The translations under genes were made by a program, and so were the position numbers. DNA of 31,779 bases from a virus, in IMG/VR virus record IMGVR_UViG_3300021962_000398, positions 1 through 31,779 of that record; one strand, given 5' to 3'. How positions within the stretch are numbered: position 1 is the stretch's first letter; the number at the start of each line of letters is the position of its first letter. Below are positions 8,907-28,563 of the stretch, piece after piece. The notes beneath the pieces are model-generated. The model made no database searches. It had not been told where the DNA came from and was given only the letters and a program-made list of their open reading frames with translations.

Positions 8907-9434
8907 ATGATAGTAAAACTTTTGGATATATTAACTGATAATGAAAAAGTTCAGTTATTAAATGAAATAAAATTACTGAATGAATCTAATGATTCTCCAG
9001 GATGGAAATTTAGTGGCTCCAGCAATGAAGAAAATAAAAATAAATTATTTTGGTACTTAAATGTAGAAAATAATAAATTTTTTAGTGAAATATTATTTGA
9101 TTCAATCAAAAAACATATTAAATGTTATTGCAATGAAGATGTAAAGGTTCAACGAATTTATCTAAATGGGCATACATTTGGACAGCAAGGATATCTTCAT
9201 GAAGATGATACCAGAGAGAATTCAAGAACGCTTTTAATTTATTGCAATGATTATTGGAATATTGAATATGCTGGAGCAACTGTATTTGACTGCGAAGAAG
9301 ATGTTTATACAGTATATCCAGAACCATTTTCTGGTGTTTATTTTGCTGGATACATAAAGCATTTTTCTCAACCCGTTTCCAAAGATTTTCTTGGATTAAG
9401 AATAACACTTGCTTATAAATTAATTACGATATAA
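8907..9434 (+). CDS. 2OG-Fe(II) oxygenase
   Basis: A 175-residue single-domain dioxygenase of the prolyl-4-hydroxylase type. The facial triad and cosubstrate Arg are visible: GQQGYLHEDD (His98, Asp100), YIKHFSQP (His152) and FLGLRITLAYKL (Arg165). The internal YAGATVFDCEEDVYTVYP matches the family's region just before the distal His. The gene opens a strongly AT-rich block that runs to 12314 and holds three oxygenases and a halogenase. No late box is seen in the 24-base gap upstream, so it is probably read from the structural operon. Substrate unknown. Confidence 0.8.
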   Translation: MIVKLLDILTDNEKVQLLNEIKLLNESNDSPGWKFSGSSNEENKNKLFWYLNVENNKFFSEILFDSIKKHIKCYCNEDVKVQRIYLNGHTFGQQGYLHEDDTRENSRTLLIYCNDYWNIEYAGATVFDCEEDVYTVYPEPFSGVYFAGYIKHFSQPVSKDFLGLRITLAYKLITI

Positions 9435-10056: not shown

Positions 10057-11643
10057 ATGAAAAATAAAAATATTAATTCTATCGTAATTGTTGGTGGAGG
10101 ATCGGCAGGATGGATGACTGCCGCCACCCTTGTTAATTTCTTTCCACAAAAACAAATTATTTTAATCGAAAGTCCAAAAATTTCTTCCGTTGGTGTAGGA
10201 GAAAGTACACTAGCACATATCAAATACTGGTTATATGCGCTGGGAATTGATGAAAAAGACTTTATTTTAGAGACTGATGCATCAATTAAATTAAGTATTA
10301 AATTTACGGATTTCTATCAAAAAGATTACGGACATTTCCATTATCCTTTTGGTAAAATTTATGTTGATAATAAAGAATTATACAATAACAATACCTGGTT
10401 ACTCAAAAAAACTTTATATAAAGATACTTGTCCTACTGATTATGCAAAAACGTTTTTCCCTGCAATTTCATTAATTGAAAAAAATAAAATAAGTAAAAAT
10501 GAAAACGGTTACTTTGGAAATTTTAATCTGAAACATGACTCTGCTTATCATTTTGATGCATCTAAATTTGCAGATTGGTTAAAGAACAAATATTGTATTC
10601 CAAGAGGAGTTCATTTTATTTCCGCAAATGTCAATCATGTTCTTTCAAATGAAGATGGAATCTCCGAAATTCTTTTGGATAATGATTTAGTTGTTACTGC
10701 AGATCTTTTTGTTGATTGTACTGGTTGGAAAAGTTTATTGCTGGGCAAATCACTAGATGTAAAATTTAATTCATATAGTGATATTCTTCCTAATACAAAA
10801 GCTTGGGCTACAAGAATACCTTATATTGACAAAGAAAAAGAATTAGAACCTTATACAAACTGCACTGCCATTGGTAATGGTTGGGTGTGGAATATTCCTT
10901 TGTGGAGCAGAATAGGAACAGGATATGTCTATAGCGACAAATATATTACAGATGAAGAAGCACTAGAAGAGTTTAAAGAACATTTAAGAACTAAAACAAC
11001 TATTCCAAATCGTGAAAGAATCAATGATGATTTAGAATTTAAAAATATACAAATGAGAATAGGTATTCATGAAAAAACTTGGTTTAAAAATGTTGTTGCA
11101 ATTGGATTATCTGCTGGGTTCATAGAACCTTTAGAAAGTAATGGACTTTTTACAGTTCATGAATTTTTACTAAAATTAGTCGATGCTTTAAGTAAAGAAA
11201 AAGTAAATCAGTGGGATATTGATGTATATAACTATTCGACTTTTAAATTATACGATAATTTTGCAAAATTTGTTTCCTTGCACTACAAACTTTCCGCAAG
11301 AGATGACACTGACTATTGGAGAGATGTGACTGGCAGAGAAACCGATTCAAGTAGAATTTTAAATGACTGTGAATTTAAATTAAGCATGGACATCAAAGAT
11401 AAAAAAGATGGACACTATGAGAAAGGAGGATTCAGTTGCATAGCAAATGGCATGAATTATCCTGCCTTGACTATAAACAATATTATGGAAAATGAATTTT
11501 ATAAAAACGTTGAAGATACTGAAGTTAGATTAAAAGAAATTATAGAATATTGGGATAATCTAAAAGAAAATTGGGATAATCATGCTAGAGATGAGCAAAG
11601 TTTGTATGAATTTATGAAGAAGGAATTTAATTTAAATGATTGA
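10057..11643 (+). CDS. flavin-dependent tryptophan halogenase homologue
   Basis: A 528-residue protein, the usual length for the family (PF04820). The FAD-binding GGGSAGWMTA lies at residues 13-22, followed by SVGVGEST (44-51). Lys78 in ASIKLSIKF aligns with the catalytic Lys79 of PrnA, which channels hypohalous acid. The signature WxWxIP is present as GWVWNIPLW (275-283), keeping FAD from acting as a plain monooxygenase. The catalytic Glu equivalent is Glu360 in EPLESNGL. It should therefore be active, using FADH2 from a separate flavin reductase, oxygen and halide. A related enzyme, VirX1 from cyanophage Syn10, halogenates varied small aromatics and prefers iodide. Substrate here is unknown. 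It sits between 2OG oxygenase genes and overlaps the next by eight bases. Confidence 0.93.
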   Translation: MKNKNINSIVIVGGGSAGWMTAATLVNFFPQKQIILIESPKISSVGVGESTLAHIKYWLYALGIDEKDFILETDASIKLSIKFTDFYQKDYGHFHYPFGKIYVDNKELYNNNTWLLKKTLYKDTCPTDYAKTFFPAISLIEKNKISKNENGYFGNFNLKHDSAYHFDASKFADWLKNKYCIPRGVHFISANVNHVLSNEDGISEILLDNDLVVTADLFVDCTGWKSLLLGKSLDVKFNSYSDILPNTKAWATRIPYIDKEKELEPYTNCTAIGNGWVWNIPLWSRIGTGYVYSDKYITDEEALEEFKEHLRTKTTIPNRERINDDLEFKNIQMRIGIHEKTWFKNVVAIGLSAGFIEPLESNGLFTVHEFLLKLVDALSKEKVNQWDIDVYNYSTFKLYDNFAKFVSLHYKLSARDDTDYWRDVTGRETDSSRILNDCEFKLSMDIKDKKDGHYEKGGFSCIANGMNYPALTINNIMENEFYKNVEDTEVRLKEIIEYWDNLKENWDNHARDEQSLYEFMKKEFNLND

Positions 11644-12175
11644 AGAACTTAAAAATCCATTGACAGAAAATTATCTTTTTTTAAAAAAACAAGTTTTAAG
11701 TAAAACTTTCGCTTGGTATTGGACTGAATATAGCACCTACAATAAAAAATGCGATGGATATACTGATGTTCCATTTTACAGTCATTGTGTGTTAGAACGT
11801 CCCACACAGTCAATGAAGGATAACTTATATCCAAGAGTAACATCAGAAAAATATATTAATATAGTTAATGAAGTAATTAAAGAGATTGCAATTTTTAATT
11901 CTTTTGAAATTAATTCTCTTTTCAGAGTTAACTTTAATTGTACATATTATATTGACGGAAACCCAACTATCCCACATGTAGATCATAATTTTCCTCATAA
12001 AAATCTTTTAATTTACTTGAATAATGCTGAGGGAGAAACTATTGTATATGGAGATGAAAAAACTTACTATTTTCAACCCAAAGAAGATGCAATTATTTCC
12101 TTTGAGGGACTCCATTCTGGAGGACAACCTCTAAGAAACCAAAGAAGAATAATCATGATTGCGACATATTGTTAA
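11636..12175 (+). CDS. 2OG-Fe(II) oxygenase
   Basis: A 179-residue dioxygenase whose start overlaps the end of the halogenase gene by eight bases, so the two are very probably translated together. Motifs are TIPHVDHNFPHKNLLIYLN (His114, Asp116), then ISFEGLHSGGQPL (His160) and RNQRRIIMIATY (Arg170 or Arg171). The short acidic loop GETIVYGDEKTYYFQP between the ligands is the family's usual beta hairpin. Such enzymes insert a hydroxyl group or, in some lineages, a halogen; the Asp ligand is intact here, so hydroxylation is expected rather than Fe-dependent halogenation. Substrate unknown. Confidence 0.8.
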   Translation: MIEELKNPLTENYLFLKKQVLSKTFAWYWTEYSTYNKKCDGYTDVPFYSHCVLERPTQSMKDNLYPRVTSEKYINIVNEVIKEIAIFNSFEINSLFRVNFNCTYYIDGNPTIPHVDHNFPHKNLLIYLNNAEGETIVYGDEKTYYFQPKEDAIISFEGLHSGGQPLRNQRRIIMIATYC

Positions 12176-22725: not shown

Positions 22726-24372
22726 ATGGCAGCAGTAGCAGATCCTAAAGAAAATCTTGCATGTTTAGCATTTGCATATTTTCTAGTGCATCCTGATTAT
22801 AAAAAAGATTCAGATCAACATAAACAAGATTGGATTGATATTTTCAAAGATTTTAAAATAACTCAACTATCTCAAGAATATAAAGCACACTTAGAACCAA
22901 ACTTTAATTTCGCAGTTCTTAAAAGTAAATATGCTTTTAATACTGGAAAAGGTGATATGCACCTGGAAGCAATTTATAATCAAATGGTAAGTCTTTTTGA
23001 CTCAAGTTTTTTGAAGGCGGGAAAGGATTATAGAATCTACGGGCAGGATAGCGTATTTGTTGATGTCATAAAAAATAAGTGTTTAACTAGACTTTCAAAA
23101 GTATTTGCAGATGCCTTATCGGCGGGAGCAAGCGTAACTAATTTAACTCCCGCCGATTTTTATATCGTAAATCATTCCATAGTAAATCAAATTAAAAAAG
23201 ATTTCACCGATACCATCATAAATCCAAAAAAAGACGAAACTATTCTCCTCAATTATTTTAAGTATAAAGATAAAACTTATTCTGGACTTATAAAAAAGTA
23301 TCTAAAATCAGGTGATTTAATTCCAGTATCTCATAAAATGCCAAAGGGAAGAGAATCATCGACATCAGTAAAACTTGCAGGTGATTTGAAAAATATTGGA
23401 AAAGTTCCTAAAAGTAATCTAGATCCATATTCTCAACTGGTGATTGTTTTGAATGGAAAATCTCCAAATCAAGTTGAAAGAATAATTGAAGATGTAATTG
23501 ATATTAAGTATGACAAATGGGATATTAGAGATGGTGGTTCTGCATCAACTTGGAAACTATTTTTTGATTTTAATTATAAGAAAATAGATCCTCAATTTGA
23601 TAATACTATTTTTGGTTTAGAACCGTTACCAGCAAACGGCGCTGGTAGTTTTAATGGTAAGTTTTATATTAGTACCTCTCAAAGTGCAAGTACACCTTGG
23701 GTTGCAGGAATGGCACCTACTTCATTAGAACCATTTTTAAAAAGATATCCTGGATATAATCAAATTATGAACGTACTGAGTAGTAAAATGAAAAGAATGT
23801 TTGATAATATTATCCTAAGTAATTTACAATCTCAAAATAGAGCAACTGCAGTGAATCAGTTTAATCAAATTAAACAACTCCCAGAATATCGAAAGTGTAT
23901 AGCATTATTATCCACTAAAAAGTTTCATTCTTTTAAAGAATTGTTGAAAGTTATGGAACCATTTTTTGGGAAGATTTCGTATCCAGACGGATTTGAAAAA
24001 TATTTGAAAGGAATGATTTATTCAATAAAAAAAGAGGGTGGATTTAGATCCAATCTAGATGTCATTCCTAGAGAACAACTTAAGTGGAATGAGAAACAAC
24101 AAAAATATACAACAGTACCAGATAGACTTCCAGAACACTATACTTCACTGCAAATGTCTTATTTCTTCTTCGTAGGGGGAAGATCCTTTAGAACTTTCTT
24201 AAAAAAATCAATTTTCTTCACTATTTTTGGTGCGATTACAAAAAGAGGATTTAATGCAGTTGGTGGGGGTTCTGGTACAACTAATCTATTAACAAAAAAA
24301 GTGAGTTTTAATAAAATGTATGAAGATGTGGAAGTATCATTAACTGCTGCTCCTCATTTAATCATGTTGTGA
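22726..24372 (+). CDS. 548-residue protein of unknown role, nuclease-like motif
   Basis: The largest gene of the window. Residues 142-148 (PADFYIV) and, 50 residues later, GDLIPVSHKMP (196-206) follow a pattern PADxYxV...LIPxSxK that resembles the metal-binding half-sites of PD-(D/E)XK nucleases (Asp144, Lys204), although the usual acidic residue before Lys is Ser-His here. The rest has a helical middle (FLKRYPGYNQIMNVLSSKMK) and a C-terminal region with MSYFFFVGGRSFRTFL. A late-like promoter suggests expression with virion genes; similar long proteins of unknown function occur in other T4-like marine phages as I recall. AT-rich relative to the following genes. Function undecided. Confidence 0.6.
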   Translation: MAAVADPKENLACLAFAYFLVHPDYKKDSDQHKQDWIDIFKDFKITQLSQEYKAHLEPNFNFAVLKSKYAFNTGKGDMHLEAIYNQMVSLFDSSFLKAGKDYRIYGQDSVFVDVIKNKCLTRLSKVFADALSAGASVTNLTPADFYIVNHSIVNQIKKDFTDTIINPKKDETILLNYFKYKDKTYSGLIKKYLKSGDLIPVSHKMPKGRESSTSVKLAGDLKNIGKVPKSNLDPYSQLVIVLNGKSPNQVERIIEDVIDIKYDKWDIRDGGSASTWKLFFDFNYKKIDPQFDNTIFGLEPLPANGAGSFNGKFYISTSQSASTPWVAGMAPTSLEPFLKRYPGYNQIMNVLSSKMKRMFDNIILSNLQSQNRATAVNQFNQIKQLPEYRKCIALLSTKKFHSFKELLKVMEPFFGKISYPDGFEKYLKGMIYSIKKEGGFRSNLDVIPREQLKWNEKQQKYTTVPDRLPEHYTSLQMSYFFFVGGRSFRTFLKKSIFFTIFGAITKRGFNAVGGGSGTTNLLTKKVSFNKMYEDVEVSLTAAPHLIML

Positions 24373-24425: not shown

Positions 24426-24494
24426 ATAAGAGTTAGACATAGAGATTTCTATCGAAGAATGTCTAATGATTCTTATTCCAAAAGAAGGAACACC

Positions 24495-25460
24495 ATGACA
24501 ACAAAACAAAGCGTCGATTTGACGGATAAAATCAGCACGATAAAAATTGGATTCGGTGAATTTGAAAAAATCACACAATGTCCAGTTCAACGTAATCACG
24601 ACAAACGTGCAAAAGACAAGAAAACCCGTGAAAAATTGGGTATTTTGCAACCACAACATTGCATAGTATCAGTTGCAGTCCTTAGGGAGGATTCTTATGA
24701 TCCTACCAGCGGCGTAACGTACATGAAAGATACTACGTTTTTGATTGATGGGCACACTCGCAGAAAGTTTTGGCAACTTGGATATTCTGATAAAATCCCA
24801 GAGTATGTAATTGCTAGTAAGTTTTCTGTCGAATCTATCAAAGAACTGCGTGAATTGTATTATACTTACGACAATTCAAGTAATACTGAAAAACCAGCAG
24901 ATCTTGCCTATGGTGCATGTCGTCTGTTGAATCTACAATTACAAAATCATAAGTTGTACGAAGTTAGTGCTTTTACTTGGGCAGCACACTTTTACAACAA
25001 AAACATTTTCACAAAATCAACATCTTATGATGGATTTGGTTTGGGACAAATTTACTCTGTATTCAAAGATGAAGTACAGTTCCTTGATTCTTTCAAATGG
25101 AACGCACCTTATAAGATTCATGGGTGGATACGCACAGCAGCACTGCTTTTCTTGAAAAAGTACAATAACGAAACATCGAAAGAAATTGTAAAACGTGTAT
25201 TTACTGATGATTTTCAAGGTAAAGATTCAGAGGGTAGGTTAGATGGCGTTACAAATATGATTCAATGGTTGAAAAAACCAGATGAGGAATGGGCACAATC
25301 GTTTTCAACTATTCCTGTTTTTGTAGAAAAATCTTTATACTGGTTGAATCAAGCATATCTTGAAGATACTGAAGGTAAAGAACGTGTTTCTAAAAAAGGA
25401 AGTCATATCGGAACATTGGATAATTATGTTCAAAAAGCATCTGTTGTTGCAGCAGCATGA
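24495..25460 (+). CDS. ParB-like (ParB/Srx-fold) domain protein
   Basis: A 321-residue protein. ATG 24495 with GAAGGA five bases upstream is preferred to the ATG at 24459. Residues 83-93 (LIDGHTRRKFW) followed by LGYSDKIPEYVI match the core of ParB N-terminal-like domains (xxDGHHRxxAxxxxGxxxVPVxV), which bind a nucleotide or act as a nuclease. The next section, ELRELYYTYDNSSNTEKPADL, has the length and polarity of the adjoining ParB helices. The C-terminal 190 residues are helical and unrecognised. No ParA is nearby, so partition is unlikely; single ParB-like proteins in phages often sit with DNA-modification genes. Followed by a terminator. Confidence 0.62.
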   Translation: MTTKQSVDLTDKISTIKIGFGEFEKITQCPVQRNHDKRAKDKKTREKLGILQPQHCIVSVAVLREDSYDPTSGVTYMKDTTFLIDGHTRRKFWQLGYSDKIPEYVIASKFSVESIKELRELYYTYDNSSNTEKPADLAYGACRLLNLQLQNHKLYEVSAFTWAAHFYNKNIFTKSTSYDGFGLGQIYSVFKDEVQFLDSFKWNAPYKIHGWIRTAALLFLKKYNNETSKEIVKRVFTDDFQGKDSEGRLDGVTNMIQWLKKPDEEWAQSFSTIPVFVEKSLYWLNQAYLEDTEGKERVSKKGSHIGTLDNYVQKASVVAAA

Positions 25461-25539: not shown

Positions 25540-26784
25540 ATGATTTCCTTTCGCCCTCACCAGCAAGAATGTCTTGAGGAAACTGCAATTTATCCCAAAG
25601 GTATTATCTGTGCAACGACAGGTGCAGGTAAAACTCTTGTAGGCATTGGTGACACAATAAGAGAGTTTGAGAAAGAGACACCACAAACTGTTGTGGTTGT
25701 TGCTCCTCGTATTTTGCTTGCGAATCAACTGTCTTCTGAGTATCTTGAACACATTGACAATGTTGCTGTTCTTCATGTTCACTCAGGAGAGACAACTCAC
25801 TTTAGCACTACAAAACCTGCAGATATTCAGCACTGGGATCAGATAGTGAAGGTGGCATTTAATCCCGATGCTCCTAAACATAAACTAATTTTCACCACTT
25901 ATCATTCTCTGCACAAGATTAAGGAAGCAGGTATCAAGGTGAATACAATTCATTTTGATGAAGCACATAACAGTGTGCAAAAGAACTTCTATGTTGCTAC
26001 TGAACACTTCAGTCAACATGCTGATCGTTGCTATTTTTATACTGCAACTCCAAAGTATTCTTCAACTCCTAATAAACCTGGCATGAATAATGTTCAGGTT
26101 TATGGCAACATCATTGCTAACATTGCTGCGCCACGAATGGTGAACGAAGGTTACATCATTCCTCCCAAGATTGTTGCCAAGCAAGTATCTTTGGACAGCA
26201 CAAATGCCTTTGAACGAGATCGTAATCATCTGCTGGAAAGTATTGATGACTCTGGTGTTTCTAAGATTCTCATTTGCTCCAAAGCAACCAAACAAATCAT
26301 TGCTTTGATGTCACAAACTGACTTCTGCCAAGAAGTGACTGAACGTGGGTATTCTTGGATGGTGATTACTTCTAAGACTGGTGCAATTATTGATGGTAAG
26401 AAAGTGAATCGTGAGGAGTTCTTTGATACTCTACACAAGTGGAGTGTTGATGATTCCAAGAAGTTTATTCTTCTTCACTACTCTATCCTGTCTGAAGGTA
26501 TCAATGTTTCTGGTTTAGAATCTGTTATTTTTATGCGCTCCATGGATGTGATTGGCATTACTCAAACCATTGGACGTGTGGTAAGATTGCACCACAATGA
26601 TGCCAAGAGACTTCGCACTGGTGAGATTGAACCTGGCAATCTATCACAATATCAGAAATCTTATGGACTTGTGATTGTACCTACCTTCAACTCTGTTGGT
26701 ATCAACACCACGAAGAAGATTCAGAGTGTTGTTGATACCATCTTTGCTAAAGGTGAACCTGCTATTTCGGTAACAAAAAGATGA
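25540..26784 (+). CDS. SF2 DEAH/ResIII-type helicase
   Basis: A 414-residue superfamily 2 helicase with all main motifs: Q-like RPHQQ (5-9), Walker A ATTGAGKT (25-32), motif Ia VVAPRILLANQ, motif II DEAH (140-143), motif III TATP (168-171), motif V SEGINV (318-323) and motif VI QTIGRVVR (342-349). The order and spacing match the ResIII/RecG/UvsW branch that moves on DNA. It is shorter than T4 UvsW (which helps remodel replication forks), so it could be a UvsW counterpart or a helicase partner of the nuclease and methyltransferase downstream. A private promoter overlaps the terminator upstream. It overlaps the next gene by four bases. Confidence 0.88.
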   Translation: MISFRPHQQECLEETAIYPKGIICATTGAGKTLVGIGDTIREFEKETPQTVVVVAPRILLANQLSSEYLEHIDNVAVLHVHSGETTHFSTTKPADIQHWDQIVKVAFNPDAPKHKLIFTTYHSLHKIKEAGIKVNTIHFDEAHNSVQKNFYVATEHFSQHADRCYFYTATPKYSSTPNKPGMNNVQVYGNIIANIAAPRMVNEGYIIPPKIVAKQVSLDSTNAFERDRNHLLESIDDSGVSKILICSKATKQIIALMSQTDFCQEVTERGYSWMVITSKTGAIIDGKKVNREEFFDTLHKWSVDDSKKFILLHYSILSEGINVSGLESVIFMRSMDVIGITQTIGRVVRLHHNDAKRLRTGEIEPGNLSQYQKSYGLVIVPTFNSVGINTTKKIQSVVDTIFAKGEPAISVTKR

Positions 26785-26963: not shown

Positions 26964-27006
26964 CGCCAGAATCCATGTATCTTTAATTCGTAGTCAATTC
27001 CTACTC

Positions 27007-27648
27007 ATGACTCTTAATCAAATCATCTCCGACAACTTTGAAGAAATCCTCAACGAAGTTAATCAGGAGATTCTTGATTTCCGCATCATTAAGTTCTGGA
27101 AGAAAATCAATCCTGAACTGACTCTCAATCAACTCCGCGATTCTTTCTGGACTGATTCCAAATCCAGGGCAGAGTTCAGTGTTGACTTGGGTGTGGAGTT
27201 TGGCAAGATGTTTGAACTCTTCCTGCCCTTCTTCCTTCAAGAAAAAGGTTACGACTGCCGCCCTTCTTTCAATAGTGGTGGTGACATGATTTTCCTGGGC
27301 AAACCCTACGAAATCAAAACTGGACAGGGTAATGACATTCAGGGTGCAACTCATTCTCCTAAAGAAGAGAAACCCATGAATCTTGTTCAAGTTCTTTGGG
27401 ACTTCAACAAAGATGTTTCTCTGAATCAACTTCTTGAGACTAAGGCATTTGTTGCTAACATGAACCTGTGCGTTCTTGATGATATTCGCATCACCCGCAT
27501 GGGCACTCATACTGGTAACAACTCCCGCACCACTTTCAAGTTTCCTGTAGAAATGTTCACCGAGATTCAAGAAAGCATGGTGTTTGGACGTTGTACCAAA
27601 GGAACCAAAAATGTAGTCTTCAAGAAGACTCCTATTGCCTATTTCTGA
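27007..27648 (+). CDS. PD-(D/E)XK nuclease, probable type II restriction enzyme
   Basis: A 213-residue protein. The core GGDMIFLGKPYEIKTGQG (91-108) gives Asp93 and, nine residues on, Glu102-Ile-Lys104: the D...ExK active site of PD-(D/E)XK endonucleases. It is followed by GNDIQGATHS, a polar segment of the kind that contacts DNA. An N-terminal helical part (EFGKMFELFLPFFLQEKGY) precedes the core, as in many type II enzymes; the length is typical. I think of the ScaI-like family but cannot confirm it. The methyltransferase gene follows 63 bases downstream, separated by a terminator and promoter. More C-rich codons than its neighbours may hint at a separate origin. A phage of this kind could use it on host DNA or competing phages. 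Confidence 0.72.
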   Translation: MTLNQIISDNFEEILNEVNQEILDFRIIKFWKKINPELTLNQLRDSFWTDSKSRAEFSVDLGVEFGKMFELFLPFFLQEKGYDCRPSFNSGGDMIFLGKPYEIKTGQGNDIQGATHSPKEEKPMNLVQVLWDFNKDVSLNQLLETKAFVANMNLCVLDDIRITRMGTHTGNNSRTTFKFPVEMFTEIQESMVFGRCTKGTKNVVFKKTPIAYF

Positions 27649-27663
27649 GTTTCTTGGTAGAAT
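27635..27663 (+). promoter_or_regulatory. sigma-70-like promoter for the methyltransferase gene
   Basis: TTGCCT (27635-27640), 17 bases, TAGAAT (27658-27663). Predicted start is near 27670, inside the left arm of the terminator at 27667, so transcripts from it could not form the full hairpin. Confidence 0.52.
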
Positions 27664-27666
27664 ACT

Positions 27667-27693
27667 GGGGGAGGTTTCTCCCCCCTTTTTTTT
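27667..27693 (+). terminator. rho-independent terminator
   Basis: GGGGGAG (27667-27673) pairs with CTCCCCC (27678-27684), loop GTTT, then CTTTTTTTT. Very strong; placed between the nuclease and methyltransferase genes. Confidence 0.9.
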
Positions 27694-27711
27694 ATTGTCT
27701 CCGATCCTTTC

Positions 27712-28563
27712 ATGAACGCTGTTTTTCAAGAGAATTGTATTGATGGTATGAAGAAGTTGCAGGAAGAGTCGATTGACTTGACTGTAACGAGTCCACCATA
27801 CGATAACCTTCGCACCTACAATGATTCATCAATGTGGGATTTCAATGTATTCAAGGAAGTTGCAGAACAACTGTATCGAGTCACAAAACCTGGTGGTGTA
27901 ATTGTCTGGGTGGTTGGTGATGCTGTGATTAAATCTAGCGAAACTGGCAGTTCTTTCCGCCAAGCACTACATTTCATGGATTTGGGATTCAAATTACATG
28001 ATACTATGATATATGAGAAGAATGGTTCTTCCTTTCCTGCCAGAGCAGAAGGTAACAGATATTCTCAAATCTTTGAGTACATGTTTGTTCTTTCCAAAGG
28101 AAGCAAACCTAAAACTGCAAATTTAATTTGCGACAAAGAAAATAAGTGGGCAGGATGGACTAACTGGGGCAAAGGTACATTTAGGGATAAAGAGGGAAAT
28201 CTGGTTGAGCGCAAGCAGAAACCCACCCCACAGTTCTCTCCCCGCAACAATATCTGGAAATATAACACAGGAGCAGGATATACAACTAAAGATAAGTTTG
28301 CTTTTGAGCATCCTGCGATGTATCCAGAAGCACTGGCAAAAGATCACATTCTCTCTTGGAGCAATGAAGGTGATTTAGTTCTAGATCCTTTTATGGGAGC
28401 AGGAACAACCGCTGTTTGCTGCATTGAAACCAACAGAAACTATGTTGGTTTTGAGATTGATGAAAAGTATTACAACATCTGCACTCGCAGAATTGAAAAC
28501 CGTGTGACAGTTATGGAACCGTCCACTGAGACTACCAATCCCCTGCTGGATGCCCTATCTTAA
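27712..28563 (+). CDS. class-beta DNA methyltransferase (N4-C or N6-A)
   Basis: A 283-residue AdoMet-dependent DNA methyltransferase. The catalytic motif IV TSPPY (26-30) comes first, then VTKPGGVIVWVVGD (57-70), a variable target-recognition part (about 100-195), and HPAMYPEALA (200-209) before the AdoMet-binding motif I DPFMGAGTT (225-233) and VGFEID (245-250). This order is class beta. SPPY is commonest in N4-cytosine enzymes but also occurs in adenine enzymes, so the base is open. It lies next to the putative restriction nuclease, whose cutting it would block by methylating the phage's own DNA. It could also act as a solitary methyltransferase against host restriction. Confidence 0.88.
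   Translation: MNAVFQENCIDGMKKLQEESIDLTVTSPPYDNLRTYNDSSMWDFNVFKEVAEQLYRVTKPGGVIVWVVGDAVIKSSETGSSFRQALHFMDLGFKLHDTMIYEKNGSSFPARAEGNRYSQIFEYMFVLSKGSKPKTANLICDKENKWAGWTNWGKGTFRDKEGNLVERKQKPTPQFSPRNNIWKYNTGAGYTTKDKFAFEHPAMYPEALAKDHILSWSNEGDLVLDPFMGAGTTAVCCIETNRNYVGFEIDEKYYNICTRRIENRVTVMEPSTETTNPLLDALS

Follow-up and report, generated by a model that had tools for sequence, protein, structure and literature searches.

A predicted type II restriction-modification pair in T4-like cyanophages, with an unannotated endonuclease family beside "solitary" methyltransferases

Marseilleviruses and chloroviruses combine a virus-encoded methyltransferase with a paired restriction enzyme, the former being the precedent for exclusion and the latter for an attack on host DNA (PMC7253447). 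Both groups infect eukaryotes, whereas the pair considered here, which has the same composition, is found in T4-like phages of cyanobacteria. The Nitratiruptor phage NrS-3 carries a complete type II pair on its genome (R.Nph3I/M.Nph3I), but it is temperate and its lysogen could be protected by the pair. Since T4-like cyanophages are lytic, any benefit of such a pair must come during infection. We found no report of a complete pair in T4-like cyanophages in the open-licence literature; in the cultured cyanophages syn9 (gp62), S-MbCM6 (S-MbCM6_046) and P-TIM40 (P-TIM40_60), the methyltransferases are annotated as lone enzymes beside hypothetical proteins. It is also of relevance that cyanomyoviruses have no denA, ndd or denB, and a review from 2010 suggested that an undescribed method of host DNA degradation is possible (PMC2984593).

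The locus described here lies in a virus record of 31,779 bases (the window, i.e., the whole stretch analysed), which carries T4-like cyanophage genes and whose DNA similarity is restricted to patches and to Synechococcus phages. We consider it highly likely that two of its genes, R and M, constitute a type II restriction-modification pair of a T4-like cyanophage. The catalytic motif, the predicted fold, the linkage and the purifying selection were established by computation; cleavage, a shared site, protection and the role of the pair are all inferred. The features of the locus are as follows:

27007..27648, plus strand: R, predicted PD-(D/E)XK restriction endonuclease of 213 aa, based on invariant residues, AlphaFold and Foldseek
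Within R: conserved blocks E70, D93, E102, K104 (first), G113-T115-H116 (second) and N172-S173-T175 (third)
27635..27663, plus strand: promoter-like sequence TTGCCT-17-TAGAAT, running past the end of R, assigned to M and conserved at further loci within this clade
27667..27692, plus strand: intrinsic-terminator-like hairpin in the intergenic stretch, GGGGGAG-GTTT-CTCCCCC with a T8 run behind it
27712..28563, plus strand: M, class-beta DNA methyltransferase of 283 aa, based on PF01555, the TSPPY and DPFMGAGTT motifs, and PDB and PADLOC matches

Both open reading frames are located where a preliminary description of this DNA had placed them, and R ends 63 bp upstream of M. A 242-aa minus-strand open reading frame lying over R (27001-27729) has no support and was read as a by-product. 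The ResIII helicase encoded upstream (25540-26784) was considered as part of a type III system and rejected, since this UvsW-type gene is present in 419 cyanophage records and is not directly beside the pair in syn9 or S-MbCM6. The pair would thus require no helicase or specificity subunit, which excludes types I and III.

Other genes around the locus deserve mention in their own right. A ParB-like gene (phrog_2615) shifts its position, being upstream in the window (24459-25460), between R and M in L006 and L007 (L006:3593-4555) and beside R in the phage DSL-LC02 (L002:6737-7729); it is not a constant partner of the pair. Two open reading frames, 8907-9434 and 11636-12175, match the same "endonuclease V" family (phrog_274), are mutually dissimilar by BLASTP and flank a tryptophan halogenase (10057-11643). 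A homing endonuclease with NUMOD3 repeats (535-1260) runs at its end into the beginning of a ferrochelatase gene (1221-1991). Finally, a 548-aa open reading frame (22726-24372) belongs to no Pfam or PHROG family and has a relative in L005 at 24% identity.

The preliminary description had assigned R to the PD-(D/E)XK nucleases on account of Asp93 and Glu102-Ile-Lys104, and all four residues are found at these positions. The AlphaFold model of R (pLDDT 88, pTM 0.86) carries the helix-strand-strand-strand core of this superfamily, with E70 on a helix (51-79), D93 on a strand (92-96), and E102 and K104 on another (99-107). Among solved structures, Foldseek placed NaeI, EcoRV and ThaI nearest, and every one of the PDB matches ranked 1 to 39 is a PD-(D/E)XK nuclease, with NaeI and EcoRV at the top. 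The E-values are weak, never reaching 0.001 (the best are 0.017 for R of the window and 0.005), and for this reason our claim is limited to the superfamily and a restriction-enzyme-like predicted fold; we do not claim membership in the NaeI or EcoRV family. A second, independently built model, of an R-family member from the marine contig L082, has its elements arranged in this order too, and NaeI and EcoRV are once more its best matches; the confidence of this model is moderate (pLDDT 69) and it was used only as support. Matches to BFVD models (best E-value 1.8e-10) could not be named and were excluded from the evidence.

R thus shares with the type IIP enzymes of the NaeI/EcoRV fold group the predicted core fold and a D...(D/E)-x-K active site; it differs from them in having no detectable sequence similarity, fold E-values of 0.005-0.1 and conserved G-x-T-H and N-S-x-T blocks of its own. 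The preliminary description proposed comparing R with type II enzymes, ScaI-like and others, and its restriction-modification reading withstands this comparison: the nearest folds are type II enzymes, although at weak E-values. No relationship to ScaI was found. The latter negative is limited, since the presence of a ScaI model among the Pfam, NCBIfam and PADLOC profiles was unchecked.

R has no sequence match in PDB, Pfam, PHROGs, NCBIfam, PADLOC or plasmids, nor to characterised restriction enzymes. Comparison of 34 R members with Pfam and PADLOC yielded no credible match, the PADLOC REase_II profile reaching an E-value of 0.016 for one member only, and the two members scanned against NCBIfam matched nothing. 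Relatives of R were found only in phages; none was retrieved when bacterial and archaeal genomes were scanned twice, but the short peptide patterns used for this could have missed distant relatives. In the alignment of 34 members, with identity down to 19%, D93, E102 and K104 are invariant, as are V63, E70, G113, T115, H116, G166, N172, S173, T175 and G194. The D-x(5-18)-E-x-K signature is present in each of the 59 distinct R-family open reading frames collected, which include three clades: A (the type of the window), B (including DSL-LC02) and C. R is under purifying selection, with dN/dS mostly between 0.04 and 0.2 and a single pair at 0.38. Very probably, R founds a new endonuclease family, its cutting activity being inferred.

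For M, the assignment to class beta by the preliminary description holds: motif IV (TSPPY) precedes motif I (DPFMGAGTT), the catalytic and SAM-binding motifs are intact, and the match to PF01555 (N6_N4_Mtase) has an E-value of 4.5e-45. Relatives of M are labelled N6A methylases in cyanophage records. However, the best PDB matches are N4-cytosine methyltransferases (8s9m/8s9n), and such enzymes typically carry motif IV as SPPY; on these grounds, we infer from sequence that the product of M would be N4-methylcytosine.

M also matches the PADLOC orphan methyltransferase profile (2.5e-91), and the first question is whether it should be taken as such. As a simple orphan phage methyltransferase, M fails, for R is found directly upstream and is kept there in relatives. 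All five close relatives of R (82-84% identity) are accompanied by M, and every M of at least 80% identity whose neighbourhood is covered has an R with its motif intact; the possibility, raised in advance, that close relatives would retain the methyltransferase and lose the nuclease motif was not borne out. In L006 and L007, the ParB-like gene is interposed between R and M; in L008, an R of only 26% identity precedes, with an ATGA overlap, an M that is 73% identical; and still more diverged R genes (15-25% identity) lie immediately next to M on many cyanophage contigs, frequently with this overlap.

We surveyed 80 viral loci with relatives of M which, after removal of 16 duplicates and 2 contig edges, amount to 62 distinct methyltransferases. 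R is adjacent in 33 of them, lies within about 1.8 kb in 4 and is absent nearby in 25 (≈40%), at least 4 of which have R elsewhere on the contig. Methyltransferases without an R of type A, B or C often present an overlapping open reading frame of approximately 205-240 aa with D...E-x-K and related downstream blocks. In total, linked R and M form 49 distinct pairs that span seven R subfamilies, and over these pairs R and M distances are correlated (Mantel r 0.77, permutation p 0.0002). The correlation is also present within clades A (0.71), B (0.74) and D (0.78), and was not seen within C, which has only five pairs. Between clades, identity is 15-25% for R against 45-80% for M; since R diverges far more than M, a shared recognition site is not demonstrated. 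In the marine contigs L074, L081, L082, L085 and L094, we observed the order MTase1-R-MTase2, which looks like one nuclease shared by two methyltransferases and might reflect an asymmetric site.

The R-related open reading frame is not restricted to metagenomic contigs. It occurs in cultured marine cyanophages, namely syn9 (gp61), P-TIM40 (P-TIM40_59), S-MbCM6 (S-MbCM6_045), S-H35, S-RIM4 and MS29, with syn9 gp61 and P-TIM40_59 annotated as unknown. A profile comparison between the R family of the window and the open reading frame of these isolates gave a probability of 96.8% (E-value 2.5e-10) with D93, E102 and K104 aligned, against 0.1% for three unrelated phage protein controls. In syn9, S-MbCM6 and P-TIM40, the neighbouring methyltransferase belongs to the same family as M (55-58% identity); what distinguishes our reading from the existing annotation is the identification of its neighbour as a relative of R. 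The 17 phage-collection records with the R-related open reading frame are the same 17 with an M of at least 55% identity. Many of these are near-identical strains, representing about six distinct phages, and neither isolate nor contig counts, which include close relatives, are independent events. By whole-genome profile search, the R-related open reading frame was detected in 7/7 genomes with M and in none of 6 cyanophages without it, except for a marginal match of 43 residues in S-SCSM1. The preliminary description regarded a nuclease next to such a methyltransferase as uncommon in T4-like phages; this is not the case, and the partner is simply unannotated in cultured and many metagenomic cyanophages.

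There are exceptions. An unannotated record of 636 kb has an M that is 64% identical and no R-related open reading frame beside it. Conversely, the complete genome of DSL-LC02 (OR032571.1) harbors an intact clade-B R (35683-36339 = L002:5947-6603) and no detectable methyltransferase of PF01555, PF02086 or PF00145. How the DNA of this phage escapes its own R is unexplained. Its describers reported a DNA glycosyltransferase candidate (PMC10611076), and we can only speculate that it could protect the DNA differently.

These observations bear on a subtler alternative, in which M is effectively an orphan that counters host restriction and R an unrelated neighbour, such as a recombination/repair or homing-type nuclease. 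The many members of the M family without R nearby, the PADLOC classification and the occurrence of R alone in DSL-LC02 are compatible with it, and M could indeed also act against host restriction. We nevertheless regard this alternative as improbable: R stays with M even where subfamilies are highly diverged and neighbourhoods vary, often with the ATGA overlap and with divergence in step; the two genes are one-to-one in the isolates examined, except for DSL-LC02; none of the homing-nuclease families of Pfam matches R; and its nearest folds are restriction enzymes and not resolvases.

The organization between the two genes varies. The layout with a terminator and a private promoter for M, proposed in the preliminary description, is a feature of the window's own clade. 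In other clades, M usually shares a few bases with R, an arrangement that suggests translational coupling, as far as gene layout can tell. A comparable hairpin between R and M is found in L003-L005. Promoter-like sites in the window alone are about as numerous as chance predicts (4 observed against 3.7 expected); however, a promoter-like element (TTGnnn-17-TATACT/TATAAT) recurs at the same place, where R ends, in L003-L005, L006, L039 and L060, and this recurrence in relatives is stronger evidence than the scan of the window. The start point of such a promoter is expected inside the left arm of the hairpin, from which we infer that M transcripts would not contain the full hairpin.

Returning to R and M as a type II pair, we propose that M would methylate a specific site in phage DNA, probably at N4 of cytosine, and that R, with its NaeI/EcoRV-like PD-(D/E)XK fold, would cut the same site when it lacks the methyl group. 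In an infected cell, unmodified DNA would be cleaved by the pair and the modified phage DNA would survive. For a lytic phage, this would expose the host chromosome as well as any co-infecting genomes. The main benefit may be that competitor phages infecting the same cell have their DNA destroyed; breaks in the host chromosome would be a second benefit, compatible with the first. We are not able to name the recognition site. In most R-bearing groups, CAATTG has an observed/expected ratio of 0.32-0.39, lower than in R-less groups (0.60-1.06), but subfamily C breaks this pattern (1.11), and AGCT, GATC and other palindromes are avoided in several groups regardless of the presence of R.

Within the restriction-modification reading, exclusion of competitor phages, or of other unmodified DNA in co-infection, is a serious but unsettled candidate for the main use. 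The patchy, accessory distribution of the pair among related phages and the fast divergence of R fit an inter-phage weapon, and the marseillevirus system offers a precedent, as it spares host DNA but can cut the DNA of relatives lacking the pair (PMC7253447). On the other hand, there are no co-infection data, and distribution alone cannot separate exclusion from an attack on the host. That the pair serves mainly to break down the host chromosome as a source of nucleotides, in the manner of chloroviruses, remains possible, though we hold it only tentatively. Such a use would suit T4-like cyanophages, which are without the denA, ndd and denB route, and the packaged restriction enzymes of chloroviruses contribute to host DNA breakdown (PMC7253447). 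The marseillevirus example runs against it, and so does distribution: M of at least 55% identity is present in 17 isolate records versus 419 with the group-typical helicase, so the pair cannot be a general route of host DNA degradation. Such patchiness speaks against the pair being essential for host DNA breakdown and points rather to competition.

In summary, we think it likely that an unannotated, phage-specific and fast-diverging endonuclease family beside "solitary" methyltransferases means that lytic marine and freshwater cyanophages, including syn9 and P-TIM40, wield a complete type II system against competitor and host DNA during infection. Since syn9, P-TIM40, S-MbCM6, S-H35 and S-RIM4 are isolates, the question is directly testable. 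The R family offers new candidate restriction enzymes, and the pair is a concrete candidate for host DNA breakdown in the subset of cyanophages that has it. If lytic cyanophages also carry the cutting half, their methylation would be an offensive tool as well.
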